Shown here one piece after another: positions 12,605 to 23,387 of a stretch of 36,867 bases of DNA. Under the pieces are notes generated by a model. That model was not told the DNA's origin, made no database searches, and saw nothing but the letters and a program-made list of their open reading frames with translations. The stretch is from Gammaproteobacteria bacterium (lineage in GTDB: Bacteria > Pseudomonadota > Gammaproteobacteria > Pseudomonadales > Azotimanducaceae), in contig VXSY01000069.1 in assembly GCA_009837725.1 (NCBI GenBank), positions 12,907 to 49,773 of the forward strand, read 5' to 3'. A program made the position numbers and the translations under genes. Position 1 is the stretch's first letter. Every line of letters starts with the position of its first letter.

Positions 12605-12987
12605 GCCCACCACACTGGCGGACAACCCGCCCTTAATCCGACTTGCCGATCCAAGTCTCAACCCGAGGCTCCGGGTCGCCCACGGACAAGGACTGGCGGC
12701 CTGCCCCGCCACCCAAGGGGCCTGTCTCGCGGGGTGAGGGCTGGTTGCACCTGCGGACCCTTGGCTGCTTCGCCTTCGGCGCGAGGAGCGTGACGGGCCC
12801 TCGCTCCGATGCGCCTCTCACTGCGCCATCCGGCCGGCACGTTGGTGTTGACTCCGCTCCGAGGCACATCCTCGCTTTATCAAGGTGTTACGAAATCTGT
12901 TCCTTGGGGAGCCCGTGGGCCAAAAAAGGGGGCGCAGCCGCGAAGCCCTTACAATCGCGCCCTTTGTCTATGGGGTGCGTATAAACC
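12605..12987. other. Gene-free spacer occupied by a dispersed repeat
   Basis: This 383-bp gap between the LarA-like gene and the CoA-transferase holds a 196-bp dispersed repeat (12708-12903) and short flanks. I see no supported gene. Open frames across it, such as 12643-12984, follow the repeat and show no coding-type substitution pattern when compared with the second copy. Confidence 0.7.
12708..12903 (+). repeat. 196-bp dispersed repeat, copy 1
   Basis: This stretch matches the reverse complement of 21750-21945 over 196 positions without any gap; by hand I count about 31 differences (roughly 84% identity). The best conserved core contains CTTCGCCTTCGGCGCGAGGA, with a CGCC-TTC-GGCG hairpin, followed by the potential stems GCGAGG/CCTCGC and GGAGCG/CGCTCC. 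In one reading frame the differences fall on second codon positions about as often as third, so a conserved protein is unlikely. The 3' end contains GTGTTACGAAATCTGTTCC. It lies in the same orientation as, and just upstream of, the CoA-transferase gene. Confidence 0.85.
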
Positions 12988-21723: not shown

Positions 21724-21749
21724 TACGGGCTGGTCAGGTTCCCTTGCGT

Positions 21750-21945
21750 GGAACAGATCCCGTAACACGTTGATAAAACATGGATGTGCGTCGAAGCCGA
21801 GTCACTACCAACGTACGGACCGGATGGCGCCGTGTGAAGTGCTTCGAAGCGAGGGCCCATCACGCTCCTCGCGCCGAAGGCGAAGCAACCAAGGCTCGGA
21901 GTGTGCAACCAGCCCTCTCCCCGCCAGACGGGCCCTTTGGGTGGC
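21750..21945 (-). repeat. 196-bp dispersed repeat, copy 2
   Basis: This is the inverted second copy of 12708-12903, with the same length and no gaps. It fills almost all of the spacer between srkA and the upstream amidohydrolase. Its 3' end on the minus strand reads GTGTTACGGGATCTGTTCC; that GTG is the most upstream possible srkA start. In the stem GGAGCG/CGCTCC of copy 1, copy 2 has CGCTTC, turning one G-C pair into a G-U pair, so the fold is kept. Confidence 0.85.
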
Positions 21946-21953
21946 TCAGCCAC

Positions 21954-23387
21954 TCAGGCGGCCAGCACCGCCGCAGCCTCTTGCGCCACCCGGGTTCCAT
22001 CGAAGAAGTTGGCGTTGGTGCCGCCGAAGAAATGCACCGGGTTTTCGAACACGAACCGCTTGAAGCCGGCCTCGTCGATGCGTTCGTCTTCCACCAATTC
22101 CCAGGCCTCCGGAAGCACGCCTGCCATTTCCTGCACGTCGAAGTGGCCGATGTCGGAGCCGAACAGGGTCTTGATCTCGGCGTCGAAGGGGTTGCAGTCG
22201 GTGTTGAAGGCCCAGGCGTTGCTCGAGTCGTCCGCCTCGCAACCGAAGTAGAAGGGGCCGACGAATAGGTCCTTGATGTCGCTCGCCTGGTCGATGCCGC
22301 AGGCGGAGTAGTCGTCAAGCTCGTCGATCCCGCCGGTGGACTGCGGCCCGTTGTTGGTGCTCACCCCCGCGCCGGCACGAATGGCCTCCACCATTTCCGG
22401 CGGGCCGTACTCCTGCGCCAGTTCCAGAAGCACATCCGGTTTGAGGTTGGCGGGATTGGTGTCTTCGAGCGCCTTGCCGTTGCGGATGTTCCAGTGGCCG
22501 ATGAGGTCTGCGTAAAGGAGGCAAGCGAAGCCGACGCCGCCTTCCAGGAAGCCGAAGTTGAGCTCCGGGAACCGGCGGGTGACGCCGCCCAGGAAGATGG
22601 CCTTGCACACGGCCTCGGAGGCGGCGGCGAAATGGCCGATGTGGTTGTAGCAGAAGTTCGTAGGCGACATGCGGAAGGCGCGGCCCCGGGAGCCCCGATG
22701 GAAGGTGGGAGAGACCTTGAGTTCCCGGCACTTCTCCCACACGGGGTCGTAGTCGTGGACGCTGTCGAGGCCGATCATGTCGTACCAGGTAGCGAGGTCT
22801 GAAGCGTCCGGCCGGTCTTCGGCCACCTTGGCAATGGGGCGGTCGATCATGCTGTTCAGCATCACGGCCTTGAGGCCCAGCTCGCTCGCGTGTTCGAGCT
22901 CGGCGATGGCTTCGTCCGGCGTGTGCATGGGAATCACCGCCGCTGGCGTGATGCGGTCCTTGAGCGGCTCGAAGAGTTCGGCCTGGTAGGTGTTGAACGC
23001 GCTGCAGGCCGCGAGGCGGGCTTCGTCGTCGTTCACGCGGGGCAGGCCGAGGCCCATGGTGGGAAAGAGGATGCTGAAGTCGATGCCGAGTTCGTCGAGG
23101 CGCTCGTAGAGCAGGCGCGGCATCATGGCGGTGGCGCGGTCGCGGGTGTTCTTCGTCGGCGCACCCCAGAAGGACTCCTGGGCGATGTGCTCGCGACGGC
23201 GTTCCTCCGGCGTCATGCCGAGGGAGCGGCGCACCCGCTCGCCGTTGATCTCCATCGCCCGCACTGCGGCGTCGCCGCCGATCTTGCGCATGGCCGGCCC
23301 CACCACCGGGGCGTACTCGAGCCAGTGGCCGTCGGCGTCGATGACGGGATGGCCCAGGCTCGATCGGAGTTTCGCTGCTTCGCTCAT
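21954..23387 (-). CDS. Amidohydrolase family protein (Amidohydro_2-like)
   Basis: The 477-aa product resembles the amidohydrolase_2 group, which includes ACMSD-type decarboxylases and hydrolases with a metal-dependent TIM barrel. It opens with HPVIDADGHWLE, where the metal-binding histidine is in DGH. Later candidates are the histidines in SPTFHRGSRGR and YNHIGHF and the aspartate in LFGSDIGHFD near the C-terminus. The LGIDFSILFPTMGLG segment is typical of the group. The substrate is unknown. It follows the D-aminoacylase by 19 bp on the same strand, so the two are probably one operon and may act on related compounds. No signal peptide is visible. Confidence 0.85.
   Translation of the reverse strand: MSEAAKLRSSLGHPVIDADGHWLEYAPVVGPAMRKIGGDAAVRAMEINGERVRRSLGMTPEERRREHIAQESFWGAPTKNTRDRATAMMPRLLYERLDELGIDFSILFPTMGLGLPRVNDDEARLAACSAFNTYQAELFEPLKDRITPAAVIPMHTPDEAIAELEHASELGLKAVMLNSMIDRPIAKVAEDRPDASDLATWYDMIGLDSVHDYDPVWEKCRELKVSPTFHRGSRGRAFRMSPTNFCYNHIGHFAAASEAVCKAIFLGGVTRRFPELNFGFLEGGVGFACLLYADLIGHWNIRNGKALEDTNPANLKPDVLLELAQEYGPPEMVEAIRAGAGVSTNNGPQSTGGIDELDDYSACGIDQASDIKDLFVGPFYFGCEADDSSNAWAFNTDCNPFDAEIKTLFGSDIGHFDVQEMAGVLPEAWELVEDERIDEAGFKRFVFENPVHFFGGTNANFFDGTRVAQEAAAVLAA

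Follow-up and report, generated by a model that had tools for sequence, protein, structure and literature searches.

Single-strand transposition of the IS200/IS605 type places an element 3' of a tetranucleotide, without terminal inverted repeats and without a sure target duplication. PATE-like elements are non-coding, lack terminal inverted repeats and insert 3' of a short motif with no clear target duplication, and BOX elements follow a boxA-boxB-boxC layout. PATEs are described as non-autonomous IS200/IS605 derivatives (PMC3119063), BOX elements are those of Streptococcus pneumoniae (PMC3049150), and REP and REPIN elements are mobilised by RAYT, or TnpA_REP (Bertels and Rainey 2011, PMC3116915). 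REPs are reported to follow coding regions and to sit where neighbouring genes are convergent or co-directional (PMC3733652); another account describes TnpA_REP as a domesticated transposase that reads the tetranucleotide GTAG in REPs, and the spread of REPs as poorly understood (PMC8266576). In A. variabilis, T. roseum and H. neapolitanus, REP dimers are set within repeated palindromes (PMC3733652), a precedent for mosaic repeats of the sort found here. So far as a limited literature search shows, the repeats analysed here form a new family, intergenic and non-autonomous, which resembles REP/BIME mosaics in habit and is unusual in having several unrelated cores between its arms. Its A unit, of about 256-261 bp, comprises a left arm, a core of ~160 nt (core A) and a right arm.

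Like REP and REPIN elements, the A family is high-copy, intergenic and clustered, with similar placement at gene ends; a GNAG tetranucleotide adjoins the unit, and the genome holds a RAYT gene. Unlike REPINs, the A unit is 256-261 bp long, has no inverted ends and contains no REP pair of the local types: none of 45 units matched any of four local REP types with four or fewer mismatches, the best match of REP type C2 having five or six mismatches in 24 of the 45. Repeated outer sequence surrounds REP elements here as it does the palindrome-set REP dimers (PMC3733652), though these arms are not a simple palindrome and the cores between them are of several kinds, including one that is no REP dimer. 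With PATEs the A units share the lack of coding capacity and of terminal inverted repeats, and an apparent insertion 3' of a short motif with unclear duplication; they differ in that no autonomous relative was found and no subterminal hairpin was supported. The resemblance to BOX lies in the intergenic location, constant outer modules and variable middle, in an unrelated host and with different middles rather than repeats of one boxB.

The window, by which we mean the whole stretch of 36,867 nucleotides analysed, contains two copies of this repeat in opposite orientation. Positions 12708-12903 match the reverse complement of 21750-21945 over 196 nt without a gap, with 31 differences (84.2% identity; 16 transitions and 15 transversions; 12, 4 and 15 at the three positions modulo 3, counted from the first base), as the sequence-only reading had described at about 84%. 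This match is far above chance; the next-longest inverted pair listed for the window was 56 nt, and BLAST of copy 1 against its own genome recovered copy 2 at E = 3.7e-56. As a measure of the element, 196 bp was nevertheless too short. A family model built from 45 copies (R1) placed copy 1 at 12662-12906 on the plus strand and copy 2 at 21746-21965 on the minus strand (model positions 37-259). The outer ends of copy 1, read from arm motifs and from the repeat-free site in two congeners (G005 and G010), define a full unit at 12656-12911 (+). It consists of a diverged left arm at 12656-12707 (from alignment to the 261-nt unit and sequence reading), a conserved A-type core at 12708-12864 (from the inverted-pair and unit alignments) and a right arm at 12865-12911 (right-arm model R3, 12865-12907, 35.4 bits). 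Copy 2, at 21744-21965 (-), lacks most of the left arm; its core occupies 21788-21945 by the same two alignments and its right arm 21744-21787 (R3 over the same span, 39 bits). Copy 1 is preceded by a lactate-racemase-like gene (PF09861, PF21113; 11315-12604, +) and followed by a CoA-transferase family III gene (PF02515; 13012-15360, +). Copy 2 has an amidohydrolase gene upstream (PF04909; 21954-23387, -) and a phosphotransferase enzyme family gene downstream (PF01636; 20749-21723, -). This amidohydrolase-like gene has its stop codon inside the model match of copy 2.

Across the family, the left arm has the consensus TTTCCACCCCGnCGGGGACGCCGGGTCGCnGACGCGCAGGGAACAGG, usually preceded by AG, and the right arm terminates in ATCAACGTGTTGCGnGATTTGTTCCATGCnAG. 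Core lengths in 49 copies spanned 157 to 177, and the equal length of the window copies is thus not general in the family. Both arms were detected in 21 of the 67 A cores with enough flank, the right arm only in 20, the left only in 9 and neither in 17, and tandem units ran head to tail with 3-11 nt separating their aligned parts. In 12 copies picked for having both arms, the core showed a median divergence between paralogues of 14.6%, compared with 28.2% for the left arm and 38.5% for the right. Six orthologous pairs differed in the core by 0.6, 1.0, 1.3, 2.7, 3.8 and 14.6%, of which the last speaks against slow core change and the other five show it; only core and flank figures were used for these pairs, in four of which the labels overran into flanking DNA (in one, the core label too). 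Flanking genes were roughly 84-95% alike between the species.

BLAST with copy 1 gave at least 46 matches in its own genome (40 of 108 candidates scored), and R1 gave at least 78 in the window genome (G000) and at least 25 in each of G005 and G010, all lower bounds, since scoring in G000 covered 126 of 4176 first-look candidates. R1 had no match in the other 13 of the 16 genomes of the genus examined, G012 and G013 being without one under stricter filters also, and none under stricter filters in 58 genomes from other genera of the family. The window pair are members of a high-copy family found in one small clade (three of 16 genomes of the genus), so the further copies whose absence would have counted against the sequence-only reading do exist. 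Among named MAGs, in a collection that may omit the window's own genome, the exact core pattern occurred only in Gammaproteobacteria SB0662_bin_60 and IRC4_bin_23. We take MAGs such as these to be sponge-derived. Viral contigs held no exact match to the core pattern and plasmids no BLAST match to the repeat, and a phage or plasmid origin was rejected on these grounds.

Gene calls from our own codon-usage caller, trained on these genomes and used in place of annotation, put 66 of 67 copies outside predicted genes; these 67 include orthologous and tandem neighbours, and distances were measured from the matched part. The upstream gene lay on the strand of the unit in 43 of 65 copies, 31 of these 43 genes ending no more than 63 bp before the matched part or overlapping it, and the downstream gene did so in 33 of 63. 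Neighbouring genes were convergent in 19 cases, co-directional with the unit in 23, co-directional against it in 11 and divergent in 9. The earlier observation that each copy ends with a box beside a same-strand gene start is correct for both window copies, but on these counts it does not extend to the family, in which the same-strand neighbour is more often the upstream gene.

The same arms also enclose REP-pair (REPIN-type) cores, which we named B, C and D by reading rather than with a classifier. The C-type core, GGGGAGGGCATCTTGCCCTCCC with its partner, was read in 14 arm units; the D-type core is CGGAGGGAAGGCATCCTGCCTTCCC and the B-type core GGGGACGGGCTTGTCCCGTCC, these further types being read among the matches listed, weak arm matches included (E up to 1). 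Searching with a C-type unit gave 89 matches in G000, 87 in G005 and 78 in G010, many of the listed ones covering the REP pair only, and none in G013 and G014. At E<=0.01 the left-arm model had 76 matches in G000, 48 in G010 and 44 in G005, the remaining 13 congeners having between 0 and 10 each, and at E<=0.05 the right-arm model had 69 in G000, 35 in G005 and none in G013. Over 506 kb of the window and of stretches from G005 and G010, chosen around A copies and not around REPs, an arm adjoined 3 of 26 REP groups, so REPINs are not tied to arms. The family is high-copy, non-coding and modular (left arm, core A, right arm), and shares its arms with REPIN-type cores. On the complement strand of one locus (L191), beyond a C-type unit ending near 1500, the motif ACCGACCGGTCCCGCCACACACTTTTTCCGTCCTACA occurs twice in succession.

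The clearer cases of presence and absence were the two window sites. At the site of copy 1, the intergenic stretch is short in G005 and G010 and contains neither the unit nor, by reading, any arm unit: G005 reads ...ACAGAGGAG and then GCGTG..., and G000 has the unit and then CCCGTG, the flanks having diverged too far to place the joint exactly. At the site of copy 2, between the same two genes, the A unit of G000 is replaced by C2-type REPs in G005; in G010 the contig ends there, and the remnant after the upstream gene holds a B-type REP-like sequence and no A unit. At a further site (L029) an A copy in G000 stands opposite a B-type core in G005 with a similar right box alongside, and other differences among the compared G005, G010 and G000 stretches were mainly apparent internal deletions and core differences. 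At L184, a 268-bp REPIN-cored C-type unit is nested in an A copy at GGAG, and the flanks, ...CATTCGGAG and CGAGGGCC..., give the A consensus when joined, with no A sequence lost. L297 has another C-type unit that breaks into an A copy at this very position, its far side lying beyond the contig end. GAG flanks the L184 insertion on both sides, yet GAG is also the usual unit end, and a 3-bp duplication looks the same here as insertion without duplication; at L299 the left side is TAG and the right end AAG. The many copies, their occurrence in three of 16 genomes of the genus, the presence and absence at both window sites and the head-to-tail tandems uphold the mobile non-autonomous element that was one half of the original proposal.

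We consider it somewhat probable that the 196 bp form the interior of a mobile, non-autonomous repeat of ~256-261 bp, inserted 3' of (G)NAG by a Y1/HUH enzyme acting in trans. Each unit would enter immediately 3' of such a tetranucleotide (GGAG, GTAG, CGAG), at target sites that would be mostly intergenic and often after stop codons. The right end of the unit, ATGCRAG, would then re-form the target, which would explain the tandems, and cores may change as insertions, deletions and recombination recur at the same intergenic sites. Left ends were preceded by AG in 48 of 77 cases, AG having a frequency of ~5% in the window, and AG belongs to the left-arm model, so this count is not independent and describes the family rather than testing the target. 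Tetranucleotides at left ends included GGAG (17), CGAG (13), GTAG (5), CAAG (5) and GAAG (4), and the units themselves mostly end in RAG. Insertion 3' of a tetranucleotide, the lack of terminal inverted repeats and of a sure duplication, and the reading of GTAG by TnpA_REP together lead us to infer an IS200-like Y1/HUH transposase as the mobiliser.

The resident RAYT is a candidate for this enzyme, and the first one, since it is the sole match to PF01797 (Y1) in G000 at E<=0.001; an unassembled relative of the repeat would be the alternative source. The RAYT-like gene (L159:1333-2010, minus strand, on contig C96 of G000) has C2-type REP-like repeats upstream, and PF01797 had one match in each of G000, G005 and G010 and matches in 10 of 16 congeners overall. 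The RAYT loci of G000 and G005 carry C2-type REPs and not core A, those of G004 (L156) and G011 (L157) carry B-type REPs in rows, and that of G010 has none of the four REP types scanned. At L157, six exact B-type REPs lie within 1.2 kb. Against the proposed transposition, 17 of the 67 A cores have neither arm detectable, and the RAYT loci of G000 and G005 lack core A and that of G010 all four REP types. Against a Y1 enzyme in particular, RNAalifold predicted no pairs in either arm alignment, leaving the arms without supported hairpins, and the co-occurrence of PF01797 with arms is imperfect: G006 has 10 left-arm matches and no PF01797, and G004, G007 and G008 have 1, 3 and 2 PF01797 matches with one left-arm match each. 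The unassembled relative may also carry another enzyme. A wider version of the Y1 reading, which we regard as doubtful, is that the arms are a general shuttle, with one Y1 enzyme (RAYT) moving units of ~225-268 bp with unrelated middles between GNAG sites.

It is possible, though rather unlikely, that an ordinary IS (of DDE type, or of the REP-targeting IS110 type) gave rise to the repeat as a miniature derivative and moves it instead of a Y1 enzyme. Seven contigs of G000 (C12, C49, C146, C163, C242, C248 and C291; L325-L331) terminate in the same 47 nt, a stretch which finishes with a similar right end and was not found at up to three mismatches in the five other genomes searched; a further relative therefore exists, its inside unassembled. 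G000 also has four IS110-type genes, 8 of 37 long units combine GGAACA close to the left end with TGTTCC close to the right, and a 3-bp duplication is compatible with L184. Terminal inverted repeats in the units nonetheless do not exceed chance (mean ungapped score 6.70 versus 6.27 in shuffles, 37 units), and a terminal-repeat MITE is unsupported by the same score. An IS110-type mobiliser is disfavoured by its distribution, such genes not being found in the carriers G005 and G010 and being commonest in the non-carriers G015 and G014. Of the 19 IS110-type matches in G015, which lacks the repeat family, 16 lie in open frames of 363 aa.

Two further explanations are both quite improbable. A host DNA element selected at gene ends and spread by recombination, such as a site for a DNA-binding protein, a gyrase site or a transcription end, would suit the slow core change in five of six orthologous pairs and the location after same-strand genes; it fits poorly with an element not found in 13 of 16 congeners, absent from the orthologous window sites in relatives and apparently shortened through internal deletion in several copies. 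Alternatively, core A may be immobile by itself and have been passed between existing arm units through their arms, whether by gene conversion or by homologous recombination. The arms are common to other cores, and core A and a B-type core alternate at one orthologous site with a similar right box; the greater divergence of arms than of cores also speaks for such spread. The 17 A cores without a detectable arm, 29 more with one arm only, and the lack, by reading, of any arm unit in G005 and G010 where G000 has copy 1 speak against it.

The other half of the original proposal, a structured RNA, is mostly refuted. RNAalifold predicted 23 pairs from 45 copies, none with a two-sided compensatory change, so that the covariation whose absence had been named as telling against that half is indeed lacking. 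Mean folding z-scores over 40 cores were -0.28 and -0.11 on the two strands, no better than shuffles, and Rfam had no family match in the window and, at a relaxed threshold, none within the repeats of three loci. Stop codons were present in 14 to 25 of 49 cores in every one of the six frames, in agreement with the initial view that the repeat is non-coding, and a peptide was rejected on that basis. As covariation, excess folding and a conserved reading frame are all lacking, an sRNA, riboswitch or bridge-type RNA kept for its fold is highly improbable, even though the core is better conserved than the arms and five of six orthologous cores differ little, the sixth differing by 14.6%.

For this uncultured gammaproteobacterium, the result annotates dozens of intergenic regions that could otherwise be mistaken for conserved small RNA. 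The natural insertions, losses and core swaps between species provide material for testing how REPs spread. If the arms do act as a general shuttle, REPINs and the non-REP core A would be carried alike, and the same intergenic places would be re-populated differently in each species. The family shares its ends with REPIN-bearing units, has another middle and differs from site to site between species, and it thereby bears on the question of how REPs spread.
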